A stretch of DNA of 53,208 nucleotides, taken from positions 1 through 53,208 of the forward strand of contig JAQNCT010000014.1 of the NCBI GenBank assembly GCA_029077825.1, given 5' to 3'. Source of the stretch: Acidocella sp. Its GTDB lineage: Bacteria; Pseudomonadota; Alphaproteobacteria; Acetobacterales; Acetobacteraceae. This document shows, piece by piece, positions 7,925 through 46,596 of the stretch. Numbering within the stretch: position 1 is the stretch's first letter; every line of letters starts with the position of its first letter. A program made the position numbers and the translations under genes. The notes beneath the pieces were generated by a model. The model was not told the DNA's origin, ran no database searches, and saw nothing but the letters and a program-made list of their open reading frames with translations.

Positions 7925-8325
7925 CTAGTATTCTTCATCGGCAACATACGAACCGATGCGCTGCACGAGATCAGGTGAGCGTTTCGCCAGGATGGCACCA
8001 TAAATAACCGCAAGCACCAGCAGGCCAAGCGCCAGGTATGGGTAGATATTGAACGGATAAGGCTGGCCTGGCTCCACCAGCCCATACAGCGGGAACAGCA
8101 TAAGACCGGTACCGAGCAGCGGAAAGATGAGATGTTTGACCGGGCTGAAATCCACCCGATGGTGCTTCAACATATAGACCGGTAAAGCCAGATTGGCGAC
8201 GAGATAAGTCACGATGATGGGAATGGTGCCAAGGGTGCCAGTATCGCCGAATTTTCCCAGCCGATGAACAAATAAATTGCCAACGGGAAGCCGACACCAA
8301 TACCCGCAAGACCGCCTGAGATATT
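7925..8325 (-). pseudogene. APC-superfamily amino acid permease remnant (internal deletion, frameshift)
   Basis: Reading leftwards, GGLAGIGVGFPLAIYLFIGW (one frame) and then GTIPIIVTYLVANLALPVYM to the C-terminus SYVADEEY (another frame) resemble helices of amino acid/polyamine permeases. Between ENSA and FGDTGTLG the expected central helices are missing and the frame changes, so an internal deletion is likely. The N-terminal helices are replaced by a piece of an aminotransferase gene. The resulting 375-codon open frame is a chimera and should not be annotated as a functional protein. Confidence 0.6.
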
Positions 8326-8860
8326 GGAGGGCATCATAGAACCCGCCTTCGCCCTGCACCGGTTCAAAAATGAATGCCGCAACGTGCTTGGGGTCGGTGT
8401 CTGATTTGAACAGGCGGCGCAGATGCTTAAGGGAGTCCGTGACAATGACGTCATGCAATTCATTGGGGAACGGTGCATGGAAAATATTCGCTGGCAGGGC
8501 ACCGAAGCCGACCTTGTAGGGAACCAATTTGCCGGTGAGTGCCATGCCGAGCAGCGTGCGGCCATGAAAAGCGCCGTCGAACGCAATGATGCCGGAGTGA
8601 CCGGTGGCGGCGCGGGCAATTTTCACGGCGTTTTCCACGGCTTCAACGCCGGTGGTGACGAGAATGGTTTTTTTGGCGTGGCTGCCAGGGGTGCTGGCAT
8701 TAATTTTTTCGGCGAGCGCTACATACGAGGTGTAAGGGATCACCTGATAGGCCGTATGGGTAAACTGGTTGAGCTGCTGGGTGACAGCAGCCACCACGCG
8801 TGGATGGCAGTGGCCCGTATTCAGTAAGGCGATGCTGCCTGCAAAAACGTCGATGTCGGC
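8326..8860 (-). pseudogene. GabT-like class III aminotransferase remnant
   Basis: The middle of a 4-aminobutyrate/ornithine-type PLP aminotransferase: NTGHCHPRVVAAVTQQL, ILVTTGVEAVENAVKIARAA, AFDGAFHGRTLLGMALTGK and FEPVQGEGGFYDA are consecutive family signatures. The first ~30 residues and the whole C-terminal half, including the catalytic lysine, are missing. At about 8325 the reading continues directly into an amino acid permease fragment. Such genes are often neighbours in amine catabolism operons, so the present structure looks like a collapsed operon. Confidence 0.65.
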
Positions 8861-9073
8861 GCCGCGATCACCGCCGAACGTGGCGTTCCGTGCGCGCACA
8901 TCACTCTGGCATGGGTGTGCTGCAAACCTGGAATCACGGCGCCGACCGTGGGTGCTACCAAGCGCGCACATCTTGATAATGCAATCGCCGCTGCCAAACT
9001 CACACTCACCGCGAACGAGATGGCGCGGCTGGAAGCCCCCTGCGTGCCGCATGCGATCGTTGGATTTTCATGA
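8855..9073 (+). pseudogene. Aldo/keto reductase C-terminal remnant
   Basis: On the plus strand one frame reads AAITAERGVPCAHITLAWV, then GITAPTVGATKRAHLDNAI, then LTANEMARLEAPCVPHAIVG and a TGA at 9071-9073. This is the C-terminal cofactor-binding part of an aldo/keto reductase (the IVGATK..HL motif). Only about 70 codons survive; the rest was replaced by the aminotransferase remnant, which runs the opposite way and overlaps the junction. Confidence 0.6.
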
Positions 9074-12449: not shown

Positions 12450-13283
12450 CTAATGCGCGCCGGACCATATCGGCATATTCAACCACCAGCTCCACCATTC
12501 CGGCCAGCCGGCTGTCCAGAACGGTCCGCTGATGATAATACATACGGCACTAAAAAATACCGCAGCTAAGGCCAAGAACAAACCCAACCTATGAATACCC
12601 AGTGTGCCGATGGAATAACCAATAAAGTCACGGAAAAACGTATCTTCATGCTCAGCTGTTTTTACGTCCTCACCCTGCGCCGGGTTCAGCGCCGAGAGCA
12701 CCAGTGAGCCATGCAGTGCCAATGCAAACGTCGTGGTGAAAAATAGTGTCACCGCGATCATATGAGCCGGATTATATTCAAAATTCAAATACTGATAACC
12801 AGTGTTTGAAACCCAATCAAGATGGCTCATGATGCCATAAGGGAACGCAACCCCCCAGGCTCCCATTAAAATGGGCCGAATAACTTCCAAACTGAAGTAT
12901 GCAAAAATGGCGAAACTAAACGCAAAAGGAACGTGCAGGCCGATGCCGAGTTTGCGCGATATCTCAACTTCTCTAAGCGCCCACGAGACAAAGGCGCCAA
13001 GAGCACATATCGTGATAACCTGCCAAAGTCCGCCTTTGGCCAGCGGCGCAAAGCCTAAACCGTATGATACATCTGGTGGGACGATATTTATTTGCCAGAT
13101 ATTCCAGGTGGTTCCTTGAGACGCCCCATAGATAATGAGCGCTGTGCCGAGGATAGAAAAAAACGCCGCCGTGACACCAAAGAAACCGACATAAAAGGGG
13201 CCAACCCAATAGTCGAATAGATCGCCTCCTAAAAGTGTACCACCAGGCACACGATATTTTTTTTCGAAGGTCAACATCGCCAT
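12450..13283 (-). CDS. pufL: Photosynthetic reaction centre L subunit with Glu at L168
   Basis: 277 residues from ATG 13283, chosen over a TTG at 13304 because AGAGGGG lies ahead of the ATG and the product then starts [15 protein letters not shown] like other L subunits. With Met removed, the ligand histidines fall at the standard positions 153, 173, 190 and 230. Position 168, His in nearly all purple bacteria and a hydrogen-bond partner of the special pair, is Glu (NFEYNPAH, codon 12777-12779). From memory of the literature, Glu-L168 is the hallmark of Acidiphilium reaction centres that carry zinc bacteriochlorophyll. Confidence 0.98.
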
Positions 13284-13330
13284 CTGAATATCCCCTCTTT
13301 GCAAGCTTATCCGATAAAATTCAAGAATGT

Positions 13331-41718: not shown

Positions 41719-42170
41719 CCGCGACTGCCACAGCACCGTTTCCGCGCTTGCAACTGACAGCCGTCGCAACGGTACTGGCCTTGGTGTTGGTTGCCTCCGC
41801 AACAGCGCGCTTTACTGGCTTTGCAAAATCACAGGCTAATCCATCATCAATCATTGCCACAACAGATGTCACCTTTAGCGATATGCCCGATGGCAGCGTT
41901 GCAATTCGCAATGTCAGAGGGAGCCATATCGTTGTATCAATTCCTGCTCGCGCTGGTGGCTTTGTGCGTTCTACCATGCGGGTTTTAGCCACCGAGAGAT
42001 TACACGAAGGCATCGGACAGGCGCAGCCGTTCCGGTTAATCCAGCTGCAAAATGGTACCTTCGAGCTGAACGATCCAGCAACCGGCCAGACCCTTGACCT
42101 GGTTGCTTTTGGCCCCACCAATGAAGCCGAATTTGCCAATATATTTTTTGCCAGCGAGGCCCAGAAATGA
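41715..42170 (+). CDS. puhC: PuhC, photosynthetic complex assembly protein
   Basis: 151 residues: one N-terminal helix (about 14-32) and a periplasmic beta-rich domain with LRVLATERL-like and GQPFRLIQLQNGTFELNDPATG segments seen in PuhC. Required for normal LH1-RC levels in Rhodobacter. Part of the uninterrupted chain of ATGA overlaps from puhA to the next ORF. Confidence 0.88.
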   Translation: MTATATAPFPRLQLTAVATVLALVLVASATARFTGFAKSQANPSSIIATTDVTFSDMPDGSVAIRNVRGSHIVVSIPARAGGFVRSTMRVLATERLHEGIGQAQPFRLIQLQNGTFELNDPATGQTLDLVAFGPTNEAEFANIFFASEAQK

Positions 42171-42481
42171 GCAACCCTTATCAAATCATCGATGTGCTTT
42201 GTTCAATCGATATCGAACAAAGCCCCTACAGTCTGCATGCTCATGCGATACCTGAAAATATCGACATCGGGCCAGGTGACACAATTATCGTGCATGATGC
42301 GCCCACCAATATCGCCTTCGGCGAACGCTATACTGGCGAACGTCGTGCCACACTCTACCGCGCCAGCGCACTACAACGGTTATGGACCGAATTCGTCTCG
42401 ATTTTCGATATCGGCGAACTCTATGAGGTTGGCTTTAGTCCGGTTGCCGAGGCTGCATGTTTCTCAAGCTTGAAAGTCTGA
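42167..42481 (+). CDS. Conserved-position hypothetical protein between puhC and acsF
   Basis: 104 residues, soluble, acidic, no signal or membrane helix. Contains [20 protein letters not shown] and [29 protein letters not shown] short ORF at this position occurs in other photosynthesis clusters that I remember, but I know of no assigned function. Its ATG overlaps the puhC stop and acsF starts four bases after it, so it is made with the assembly and cyclase proteins. Confidence 0.8.
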
Positions 42482-42485
42482 AGCC

Positions 42486-43541
42486 ATGAATGAAATCATC
42501 GCCCCTAACGAACAAACCAAGCTCGCCCAAACAAGTACAGTGCTGAGCCCGCGCTTTTATACCACCAACTTTGAGGCACTAGAGGCGATTGATGTCTCCT
42601 CAGTACGCGATAAGTGGGATGCTCTGCTGGCGGAATTCAAGGCCGACCCAAACAAAGGCCATTTCATCCGCAACGAGGAGTTCGACGTTGACCTCACTTT
42701 ATTGCCGCCTGATTTGCGCGCGGAATTATTAGATTTTCTGGTAAGTTCCGTCACTGCAGAGTTTTCAGGTTGCGTGCTATATGCGGAGATTCGCAAGCGG
42801 GTAAAAAATCCTGACCTCAAAGCCCTGTTCGCTTACATGAGCCGCGATGAAGCCCGCCATGCCGGTTTCATCAACGATACGCTTAAAGACTTTAATATGA
42901 AGGTTGATCTTGGGTTTTTGACCAAGGCCAAAAAATATCAATATTTTCAACCAAAGTTTATTTTTTACGCAACCTATCTCTCTGAGAAAATCGGCTATGC
43001 GCGTTATATCAGCATCTACCGCCAATTAGAGCGGCACCCTGAATTGCGCATTCACCCGATTTTTAAATGGTTCCGCGAGTGGTGCAACGATGAATTCCGC
43101 CATGGTGAGGCATTTGCCTTATTGATGCGTGCCAACCCATGGATGTTGACCGGCTTTAACAAACTTTGGATCCGGTTTTTCGTGTTGGCGGTGTTTGCCA
43201 CCATGTATGTGCGCGACCATGCGCGGCCGGTGTTCCACGCAGCGCTTGGGCTTGACCCAACCGAATATGATTTCCAGGTGTTCCGCATTACCTCAGAAAT
43301 CACCAAACAAACCTTTCCGGTCAGCCTTGATCTTGACAATCCAAACTTCCACGCCGGGCTGGAAACACTGCGTGAAATTAGTGTCAAGATGGCGGCTGAC
43401 AAAAATAAAACCGGCCCTGTGGCAGGGTTGATTAAGTTGGGCCGACAAGCCAAAGCAGCCTCCGCTTTTATCAGGTTATTCCTGCTGACACCAAAGCGTC
43501 ATGCGTTGCCGCAAGACGTCCGCCTCGCCCCGACCTGGTAA
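42486..43541 (+). CDS. acsF: Mg-protoporphyrin IX monomethyl ester oxidative cyclase (aerobic)
   Basis: 351 residues; oxygen-dependent di-iron enzyme that closes ring E. Ligand motifs [16 protein letters not shown] (Glu92), [10 protein letters not shown] (Glu122, His125) and [15 protein letters not shown]. Its presence, with no bchE in the window, marks an organism that makes pigment under oxygen. Followed after 13 bases by the puhE-G3E fusion. Confidence 0.96.
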
Positions 43542-43554
43542 GGATAGCACCGCC

Positions 43555-45342
43555 ATGCAAAGCTATTTTTATCCAGCTATGTTCGCTTTATTTGTCTGGT
43601 GGTTCAGCACCGGCGCGATTATTTTCCTCGATAATCTGCCGCGTAAAACCTTCAAATACAGCATGGTCGGCGCCACCATCGTCTCTCTCTCATGCCTTTA
43701 TGGCTTGAAAATAACGTCTGCCCAGACGAGCCTTGTGAGCGCCTATGAGGCATTTTTTTTCGGACTATTCGCCTGGGGCTGGCAAGAGATCAGCTTCTAC
43801 ATGGGCTATGTCACCGGCCCACGTAATCAACCTTGCCCGGAAGGCTGCGGTGGCTGGAGACATTTTGGCCACGCCATTGAAACCAGCCTGTATCATGAAG
43901 TTGCCATTATCATCTCGGCTTGCGCCATCTTCATCCTCACGCGCCATGAGCCTAATCAAATCGGCATGTGGACGTTCATGGTGCTGTGGTGGATGCATCA
44001 GAGCGCTAAACTCAATGTGTTTTTCGGCGTACGGAATCTTAATGAAGAATTTTTACCTGAGCATTTAACGTTTCTAAAAAGCTTCCTTAAATCTAAACCT
44101 ATGAATTTATTTTTTCCAATCTCCATTACGGTTTCAATGGTGATTGCAACCATGCTGTTCGAGCATGCCGCGAGCGCTTCAAACGCATTCGAGCGTTCGG
44201 GCGATACGTTCCTTGGCACCATGATGGCACTGGCAATTCTGGAACACTGGTTCCTGGTAATTCCGCTACCGGCTGGAAAACTGTGGAAATGGGGTCTGGC
44301 TTCACGCAAGACATTAAAAGCCTTTGATGTTGAAATCGTCGCGGGCTTTCTGGGTGCCGGCAAAACCACTTTCATGACCCGCCGCCTCAATGACCTCGCC
44401 ACACTTCCCGGCAAAACCGTTGTTCTGGTCAATGATTTCGCTTCCGTCGGGGTGGATGGCTCGCTGCTGACCAACCAGGGTGCCGATGTAGTAGAACTTC
44501 CCAACGGCTGCATCTGTTGCAGTCTGCGTGACGATCTATCCCGTCAGCTGGAAGACACCGTTACCCGCTTTGCCCCTGACCGCGTACTGATCGAACCATC
44601 CGGTGTAGCCGATATCGCATCGCTGATCGGGGTGATGCGGCGCCCTGCCCTACTGCCCTTTGTTCGCGCGGTGAAAATTACCACGATCATTGATGCTGGG
44701 GCGTTCCTAGAAGATTACAGCAAACTGCCAGCGCATTTTGCGGCGCAAGCCAAATTGGCGTCACTGTTAATCATCAATAAGGCCGATGTCGTCTCAACCG
44801 CCGAACGGATGATAGTGGTTGAAACGTTGCGGCGCCTCAACCCCGCGGTTGTCATTGTTACCGCACGCTATGGTCATATTGACCCCGAGCCATTACCACA
44901 GGCCCGAATTGCGCTGGTCCATCAAAACCCAATGCATAATGAAGCAAACCATGAATGCGATGATCATTGCAGCCACGATGGTCATGCGCCCCACAGCCAC
45001 CATCCACATGACCATAGCGAACACAACCACAACCACGCGGCATCTGATCTAGGCTTCACCTCCTGGAATACCGAGCTTCATACCCACTGCAATGCGGATG
45101 CTTTGCAAGCTGTGCTCGATGAGATTGTTGGCGGTAAATTTGGCACCATCGCCCGTGTTAAGGGTTTAGCAAAATCCGGCAACGGTTGGCTGCATTTCGA
45201 TGTGGCCGGCGGCCGTGCCAGCATGACCGCGTTTGCCGCCCGCAGCGATGAGCAAGCCCGCGTGGTCGCTATCGGCAAGGACATTCATGAATCTGAACTT
45301 GCTGCTGCGTTTTTGGCCTGTGACGTAAAACTAGCCGCCTGA
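43555..45342 (+). CDS. puhE: PuhE fused to a COG0523/G3E metallochaperone GTPase
   Basis: 595 residues from ATG 43555 (AAGGAT upstream). Residues 1-252 are PuhE (DUF3623): seven helices, with SAYEAFFFGLFAWGWQEISF, GPRNQPCPEGCGGWRHFGHA and MWTFMVLWWMHQSAKLNVFF. From about 258 to the end, in the same frame, is a complete G3E GTPase: Walker A GFLGAGKTTF (Lys270), CxCC motif GCICC (319-322), IEPSGVADIASL, NKAD (408-411), a loop with 13 His and two Cys in 34 residues (461-494), and the CobW C-terminal domain. Positive-inside counting puts the GTPase in the cytoplasm. PuhE alone is normally about 270 residues. A role in metal delivery is inferred; alternatives are iron for AcsF or general zinc supply. 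Confidence 0.93.
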   Translation: MQSYFYPAMFALFVWWFSTGAIIFLDNLPRKTFKYSMVGATIVSLSCLYGLKITSAQTSLVSAYEAFFFGLFAWGWQEISFYMGYVTGPRNQPCPEGCGGWRHFGHAIETSLYHEVAIIISACAIFILTRHEPNQIGMWTFMVLWWMHQSAKLNVFFGVRNLNEEFLPEHLTFLKSFLKSKPMNLFFPISITVSMVIATMLFEHAASASNAFERSGDTFLGTMMALAILEHWFLVIPLPAGKLWKWGLASRKTLKAFDVEIVAGFLGAGKTTFMTRRLNDLATLPGKTVVLVNDFASVGVDGSLLTNQGADVVELPNGCICCSLRDDLSRQLEDTVTRFAPDRVLIEPSGVADIASLIGVMRRPALLPFVRAVKITTIIDAGAFLEDYSKLPAHFAAQAKLASLLIINKADVVSTAERMIVVETLRRLNPAVVIVTARYGHIDPEPLPQARIALVHQNPMHNEANHECDDHCSHDGHAPHSHHPHDHSEHNHNHAASDLGFTSWNTELHTHCNADALQAVLDEIVGGKFGTIARVKGLAKSGNGWLHFDVAGGRASMTAFAARSDEQARVVAIGKDIHESELAAAFLACDVKLAA

Positions 45343-45384: not shown

Positions 45385-46596
45385 ATGCAGTACGAAGAAT
45401 TTTTTCGTAGCCAACTGGATACATTGCACCGCGAGGGCAACTACCGCGTGTTCGCCGACCTCGAACGAGTTGCAGGGTCATTCCCGGTTGCCACCCAGCA
45501 CGCCGCCCGCGGTAAGCGTGATGTCACCGTGTGGTGCTCCAACGATTATCTCGGCATGGGCCAGCATCCGGCGGTACTGAAAGCCATGCATGAGGCGTTG
45601 GATAAATGTGGCGCCGGGGCCGGCGGCACCCGCAATATTGCCGGGACCAATCATTACCACCTACTGCTTGAGCGCGAACTCGCTGATTTGCATCACAAGG
45701 ATTCCGCTCTGCTGTTTAATTCCGGCTATATGTCAAATTGGGCGACCCTCTGCACGCTGGCCGCCCGCATGAAAGGCTGTGTGGTACTCTCGGATTCTGG
45801 CAACCATGCCTCCATGATCGAGGGCATCCGCCATAGCCGTGCCGAGTGCCAGGTATGGGAACATAATAATCTCGCTGATCTGCGCGAGAAGCTTACGGCC
45901 ATCGAGCCCGGCCGGCCTAAACTGATTGCTTTTGAATCGGTGTATTCAATGGATGGCGATGTCGCCCCTATTGAAGGCATCTGCGACCTCGCCGATGAAT
46001 TTGGCGCCATGACATACCTCGATGAAGTTCATGCGGTTGGCCTGTATGGGCCAAGCGGTGGCGGGCTGTCAGATCGCGATCACCTTAGTCATCGCCTCAC
46101 CATCATTGAGGGCACATTGGCGAAAGGCTTCGGTGTCATCGGCGGTTACATCACCGGCTCACATGCGCTGTGCGATTTTATCCGCAGCTACGCCTCGGGT
46201 TTCATTTTTACCACAGCACTGCCGCCGATGGTGGCAGCTGGGGCACTGGCCTCAATCCGGCATCTCAAAGCCAGCAGTGCCGAGCGTGAACGGATGCACA
46301 ACCGGGTGGCGGTGCTACGCGCAGCACTTGACAGCGTGGGGGTGCCGCATCTGGCCAACCCCAGCCATATCGTGCCCGTCATCGTTGGTGACCCGGTGCA
46401 GTGCAAGAGCATCTCGGATCAGTTGCTCGACCGTTTTGGTATTTATGTCCAGCCGATCAATTACCCCACCGTGCCACGTGGCACCGAGCGGCTGCGCATT
46501 ACCCCCTCGCCGCTGCATACCGATGCTGATATCGCGCATCTGGTGGCAGCTCTTGCAACCATCTGGAGCGAATTAAGCATTCGTAAGGCCGCATAA
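45385..46596 (+). CDS. hemA: 5-aminolevulinate synthase
   Basis: 403 residues; PLP enzyme condensing glycine and succinyl-CoA, first step of tetrapyrrole synthesis in alphaproteobacteria. [47 protein letters not shown] and the PLP lysine Lys247 in [16 protein letters not shown] precedes the ATG. Gives the photosynthesis operon its own supply of precursor; a second copy may exist elsewhere. Confidence 0.97.

Follow-up and report, generated by a model that had tools for sequence, protein, structure and literature searches.

We know of no biochemical activity for PuhE, a membrane protein encoded within photosynthesis gene clusters that assists some purple bacteria in assembling their light-harvesting apparatus, and a His-rich loop is present in some GTPases of the COG0523 (G3E) group. 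According to the available part of PMC9164220, many COG0523 GTPases have no known client. A gene joining the two proteins in one frame, puhE-cobW, is found on a stretch of 53,208 nucleotides from Acidocella sp. (GenBank assembly GCA_029077825.1, contig JAQNCT010000014.1, positions 1 to 53,208 of the forward strand; this whole stretch is referred to as the window). The fusion is real and widespread and shows no tie to the rare zinc pigment; it is accompanied by a possible metal-binding site in PuhE. Paper searches returned no report of a fusion of PuhE with CobW or a GTPase, most subscription papers lying outside their reach, and the available portion of PMC2770081 gave no match for the fusion or for photosynthesis.

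The fusion gene (43555..45342, +) encodes 595 residues and lies in a single unbroken open frame (43501-45342, +, 613 codons). The likely translation start is the ATG at 43555, judged from its spacing after acsF (whose stop at 43541 comes just before, with an AAGGA-like site between) and from the PF12291 match at 43555-44313. The PuhE (DUF3623) domain, with seven predicted transmembrane helices, covers 43555..44313 (+; PF12291, E 4.5e-106), followed by the COG0523 GTPase (cobW) domain at 44329..44853 (+; PF02492, E 1.3e-40) and the CobW_C domain at 45055..45321 (+; PF07683, E 1.2e-8, 35.2 bits against a cut-off of 22). On the 613-residue frame the corresponding Pfam matches extend over residues 19-271 (E 4.6e-105), 277-450 (E 1.6e-39) and 519-607 (E 1.2e-8), and the TIGR03055 model of PuhE scores 307.4 bits, over its curated cut-off of 164.05. 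The P-loop, CxCC and NKxD motifs of COG0523 GTPases are all present, as GFLGAGKTT (44344..44370, +), GCICC, the metal motif (44506..44520, +), and NKAD, the guanine-specificity motif (44776..44787, +), the first and last also read in the alignment of fused tails. Among 52 distinct fused tails the P-loop pattern GxxGAGK(T/S) is found in all, and GCICC is kept in 46 and lost in six. The GTPase is connected to CobW_C by a His-rich linker (residues 474-512 of the frame; 44920..45036, +); the first-pass annotation had noticed this loop and counted 13 histidines, of which there are 14. In four Aurantimonadaceae loci (L060, L070, L074 and L079) the linker has grown to ~150-180 residues with ~40 His.

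The in-frame joining of the two domains, with both motif sets intact and no stop between them, had been read from the window alone. It is now confirmed by the open frame, by Pfam, and by the same fusion in other genomes, where it is read as a complete gene. Since 52 distinct fused tails could be aligned, the fusion is no sequencing artefact, and chance or a frame error is excluded because complete copies of the gene occur in 43 of 50 genomes of a named public collection and in 22 of the window's family. The family set comprises 299 genomes, 96 of them with PuhE; the 93 copies classified, in 92 genomes, are 58 plain, 22 PuhE-GTPase-CobW_C, 10 PuhE-CobW_C and three cut by a contig end, one of which (L007) ends inside the GTPase. 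Outside this classification are G018, G026 and G178 (fragments), G264 (a 276-residue frame, too short for the fusion) and a second copy in G053. In the wider samples the fusion makes up three of 27 over-cut-off matches in the class and three of 31 in the phylum (one of these 31 was judged non-fused by frame length), the window's own gene being included in both counts. The named collection gave 52 loci in 50 genomes, corresponding to 43 complete fusions, four cut or frame-shifted and three without GTPase, counts that lean towards fused genes because the scan query was the fused protein. In the complete chromosome of Jiella pelagia (L073, 8001-10200) a frameshift or a sequencing error within the GTPase divides the fused gene into two overlapping frames. 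A sample of 80 family genomes, each with PuhE complete and a completeness value of 87 or more (21 fused, 10 PuhE-CobW_C, 49 plain), contained no stand-alone close homologue of the GTPase (best stand-alone protein 116 bits, weakest fused copy 137). A GTPase supplied in trans where PuhE is unfused was rejected on the same 80 genomes.

The candidate metal motif in PuhE, C94-x3-C98-x4-H103-x2-H106 (43834..43872, +), spans loop 87-99 and reaches into the beginning of helix 4, and is joined by H148 in helix 5 (43996..43998, +); the five residues are abbreviated here as CCHHH. In a survey of 174 distinct PuhE domains, E78, E115, E230 and H231 are invariant and H114 is present in 171. The complete CCHHH set is found in all 54 fused sequences, among them the cut L007 and the frame-shifted L073. 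In the 105 plain PuhE sequences position 103 is Arg in 82 and position 148 is Arg in 92, and the full set occurs in only five, all of them inside a clade of 66 sequences (support 95) that also holds every fused one. H148 occurs in none of the 107 sequences outside this clade. The set is likewise absent from the 10 PuhE-CobW_C proteins, a count that leaves out L075, a Pelagibius bin inside the 66-member clade with a partial CobW_C match, which has it. A later sample of 29 sequences showed CCHHH in none of 14 PuhE-CobW_C proteins, giving zero of 24 over both samples with the one partial match left out; it held no new fused gene, only three duplicates, so that the rule that fusion implies CCHHH gained no out-of-sample case. 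Three named plasmid-borne PuhE proteins (of 11 found), 259-280 residues long, are also without the set. The motif region aligns with one single-residue gap (L181) among the 35 sequences displayed. Seven alignment columns are invariant in fused sequences and below 25% elsewhere, and His or Cys occupies four of them (binomial P 1e-4 relative to the overall His and Cys content, 0.0095 relative to invariant columns). Within the clade CCHHH has decayed in three of nine GTPase-less sequences and in none of the 54 with GTPase (Fisher 0.002, not corrected for kinship). The association of the GTPase with this set is new here.

The AlphaFold2 model of the fusion shows seven long helices (2-26, 30-54, 60-86, 100-129, 136-156, 186-206 and 211-235) followed by a G3E-like fold, with a mean predicted local distance difference test score (pLDDT) of 77 and a predicted template modelling score of 0.54; over most of the His-rich linker pLDDT is <50. 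In Foldseek the GTPase half matches YjiA (4ixm, E 2.2e-12), and the PuhE fold has no match at E 0.001 or better. The best VIA-align match of the PuhE fold is a designed helical barrel (Z 6.9, 5.2 Å, 185 aligned), which was read as meaningless. The view of PuhE as a transmembrane acyltransferase, from an old Pfam clan, has been rejected by others on structure, as given in the available text of PMC12423673. From the order of the modelled helices, C94, C98, H103 and H106 would be placed on the same side of the membrane as the C-terminus, and H148 in the half of helix 5 nearer that side. As there are seven helices and the GTPase must be cytoplasmic, loop 87-99 and the beginning of helix 4 should face the cytoplasm, a placement that favours the view of PuhE as client of the chaperone fused to it. 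The membrane-tethered cytoplasmic metal donor proposed earlier stands as regards the tethered GTPase, the puh operon and the intact metal motif, and its cytoplasmic side is predicted from topology.

A shorter form of the protein, in which PuhE is followed directly by a CobW_C of ~100 residues with no GTPase, is found in 10 family sequences (L144, L145, L146, L147, L153, L154, L155, L211, L218 and L235), and with 14 further proteins in the second sample the total over both is 24. Compared with the CobW_C of fused proteins, the tails of the 10 score 50-89 bits and the best G3E protein that truly stands alone scores 32 (L073 scores higher in this comparison, being the second part of a split fusion gene and not a stand-alone protein). 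The Pfam CobW_C model recognizes them weakly or not at all (L146 21.0 bits with a cut-off of 22, L147 13.8, L145 none). In a tree of 103 CobW_C columns, 62 PuhE-linked domains are separated from 19 stand-alone ones at support 100, and the GTPase-less domains are nested, with weak support, among the fused ones. This arrangement would fit a loss of the GTPase from the full fusion. The PuhE tree places the same proteins outside the clade of fused sequences, and the two trees conflict. The existence of PuhE-CobW_C proteins suggests that CobW_C can serve by itself as a docking module. No report of this architecture was found in the paper searches, and the GTPase-less form, with a CobW_C akin to the fused one, is new here.

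The best explanation, held tentatively and with few independent events behind it, is a cis-acting metallochaperone that loads metal into PuhE itself. PuhE-GTPase-CobW_C would be an old three-domain photosynthesis assembly protein, with the GTPase and CobW_C hanging from the seven-helix PuhE on the cytoplasmic side. The His-rich loop would act as the metal antenna of the GTPase, which in its GTP state would bind a transition metal (zinc, iron or cobalt) at GCICC. GTP hydrolysis would then hand the metal over to PuhE, with CobW_C docking, and the receiving site would lie on the cytoplasmic half of PuhE and consist of C94, C98, H103, H106 and probably H148. Metal loading would switch PuhE into an assembly-active form. 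Counted in favour of PuhE as client are the intact GTPase and metal motifs, the YjiA-like fold, the CCHHH set that accompanies the GTPase and its place in the helix order, the GTPase with no close stand-alone homologue in the 80 genomes, and the prediction, in the accessible part of PMC9164220, that the COG0523 C-terminal domain makes target-specific interactions. A broader form of this proposal, possible and at present more doubtful, is that in one large phototroph clade, mostly with the oxygen-dependent cyclase, PuhE is a metalloprotein (candidate site CX3CX4HX2H plus H148) with its own cis GTPase metallochaperone, so that metal and GTP control photosystem assembly; in some lineages that lost the GTPase the site would have decayed, and in others the CobW_C docking domain alone would remain.

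Several observations weigh against metal loading in cis. Two objections are the strongest: GCICC is missing from six of the 52 distinct fused tails, when CCHHH is kept in all fused sequences, and independent events are few. The set is retained in six of the nine GTPase-less members of the clade, CCHH without H148 is found in nine of the 107 sequences outside it, and the full set is present in three of the 15 plain PuhE of the later sample. When motif and fusion are compared with correction for kinship, two independent pairs remain on well-supported branches, which leaves the test no power. When the seven motif columns are left out of the tree, no clade of fewer than 87 members (support 68) unites the fused sequences, and four changes are needed for H148, six for the full set and five for the fusion. 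The motif loop is also poorly modelled (mean pLDDT 54-65 over residues 81-100).

A rather unlikely alternative to metal loading is a GTP- or metal-sensing brake, in which the GTPase sets the conformation of PuhE and couples bacteriochlorophyll output to metal or GTP with no metal handover, CobW_C being a contact that also works alone. In its favour are a P-loop pattern that persists in every fused tail though GCICC is gone from six, and the persistence of CobW_C without GTPase in the 24 proteins of the two samples. The retention of GCICC in the other 46 tails, together with the His-rich linker in most, points instead to metal handling, and the change of the PuhE motif is left unexplained.

It is unlikely that the tethered GTPase is a trans-acting donor of iron or another metal for a neighbour on the cytoplasmic face, either AcsF or the reaction centre at its non-heme iron. 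An iron role for AcsF, the di-iron cyclase, had been named as the main alternative in the first-pass annotation, and it now looks weak: AcsF is present in all 80 family genomes whatever the architecture, 59 of them without a fused GTPase, and its presence is therefore uninformative on the GTPase. In the named collection acsF was matched beside puhE at 40 of 47 fused loci (among the remaining seven, upstream sequence is nearly lacking in L059 and L072, and the flank that is present holds no acsF in L048, L056 and three Roseospira loci), and AcsF is found in 45 of 50 genomes. The five without a match are Roseospira marina, R. visakhapatnamensis, R. navarrensis, a Rhodospira bin with the gene cut, and a 'Thiodictyon' bin. 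The three Roseospira GTPases keep the P-loop and have lost GCICC, and this is the one hint that remains for iron: among genomes with a readable fused GTPase, GCICC is lost in three of four lacking AcsF against two of 40 with it (Fisher 0.003, uncorrected). These three losses, being in one genus, count as one event, and they are opposed by the 'Thiodictyon' bin, which retains GCICC without an AcsF match, and by L067, L068 and L141 (genome G019), which lost it with AcsF in the genome. The bin with the fusion may itself be mis-assembled, since a complete Thiodictyon plasmid carries a plain 280-residue PuhE beside bchE. Donation of iron in trans would also leave the CCHHH set unexplained. BchE was rejected as a driver of the fusion, being over the cut-off in eight of 21 fused, five of 10 PuhE-CobW_C and 15 of 49 plain genomes, with no association.

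The first-pass annotation had proposed a zinc insertion or exchange factor for Zn-bacteriochlorophyll, starting from Glu at position L168 of the window's PufL. The residue is real, as pufL (12450..13304, -) reads NFEYNPAHM, and the route by which zinc enters the pigment is described as uncertain in the available part of PMC12654162. Every Glu-L168 genome seen carries the fusion with GCICC intact (nine in the named collection and eight in the family). However, PufL is readable in 42 of the 43 complete-fusion genomes of the collection, and 33 of these have His-L168, against nine with Glu. The His-L168 genomes include Fulvimarina, Jiella, Aurantimonas, Roseospira, Caenispirillum and Lichenibacterium; the named His-L168 species presumably make Mg-bacteriochlorophyll. 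In the 80 family genomes L168 was assessed by an exact DNA pattern for (N/H)FEYNP, in which a lack of match alone does not prove His; nine genomes matched, eight of them fused, and 13 of the 21 fused genomes lacked the pattern. The ninth match, in G231 outside the fused group, lies in a stretch without a pufL match and was counted as chance. In the genomes of L075 and L078 (Pelagibius bins) the PufL genes, L087 and L089, have Met at L168, neither His nor Glu. As the Glu-L168 genomes are confined to one clade of 13 Acidiphilium and Acidocella sequences among the fused ones, their overlap with the fusion reflects inheritance and not an independent association. The fusion is thus not a mark of the zinc pigment nor a dedicated zinc-chlorophyll factor, although it may be permissive for that pigment, given that all Glu genomes seen possess it. 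On the distribution of the fusion against L168, a link to the zinc pigment was rejected, and a zinc insertion or exchange role is very improbable. The first-pass annotation had itself listed the fusion being equally common in Mg-bacteriochlorophyll species as grounds for refutation, and on this ground its zinc reading fails.

The gene order around the fusion, puhA-puhB-puhC-orf104-acsF-puhE::cobW-hemA-hemC, is the expected place of puhE in the puh operon. Directly upstream lies acsF (42486..43541, +; TIGR02029, 477.8 bits) and directly downstream hemA, encoding 5-aminolevulinate synthase (45385..46596, +; TIGR01821, 653 bits). Between puhC and acsF, orf104 (42167-42481, +) encodes a 104-residue protein with no NCBIfam match, which is matched at many fused loci, and a frame of 464 residues upstream in the same locus, also with no NCBIfam match, is taken by us as lhaA. 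The window encodes its own Mg-chelatase (BchHID), and its genome holds a full BchE beside AcsF (G000:C97:10304-11812, -); a genome of the same genus, G283, gives only a weak BchE match. PuhE is found in four of the 21 genomes listed for the genus, within which phototrophy looks patchy. The window's genome is Acidocella-like, its best named relatives being metagenome bins of Acidocella (best segment ~90%). Elsewhere in the window, the frame at 7925-9052 (-) resembles, by eye, a partial class III aminotransferase that continues into the last part of an amino-acid permease; it may be a pseudogene or the scar of a deletion.

The fusion presents a metallochaperone covalently joined to its likely partner, with a candidate metal site that can be named residue by residue, and for this reason both the activity of PuhE and the COG0523 client question become testable by point mutants. 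Automatic naming by the PuhE model would probably hide the second half of the protein. A tempting and poorly supported candidate for a zinc-pigment enzyme is removed.

In comparison with known systems, the protein resembles PuhE (TIGR03055; DUF3623, PF12291) in its operon place, puhABC-hyp-acsF-puhE-hemA, and in the universal E78, E115, E230 and H231, and differs from it by ~340 extra residues (GTPase, linker and CobW_C) and by the CCHH and H148 set. With the COG0523 GTPases YjiA, CobW and ZigA it shares the P-loop, CxCC, NKxD, CobW_C and the YjiA-like fold, and with some members of the group the His-rich loop, whereas here the GTPase is joined to a membrane protein within the photosynthesis cluster. 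The scores against CobW (TIGR02475, 98.7 bits) and ZigA (NF038288, 85.6 bits) are below the equivalog cut-offs of 332.1 and 600, respectively, and its CobW_C groups apart from the 19 stand-alone ones. A functional parallel is the delivery of cobalt by CobW for vitamin B12, as described in the available text of PMC7895991, where a G3E GTPase also serves a tetrapyrrole pathway; in the present case, the GTPase is tethered to an assembly factor.
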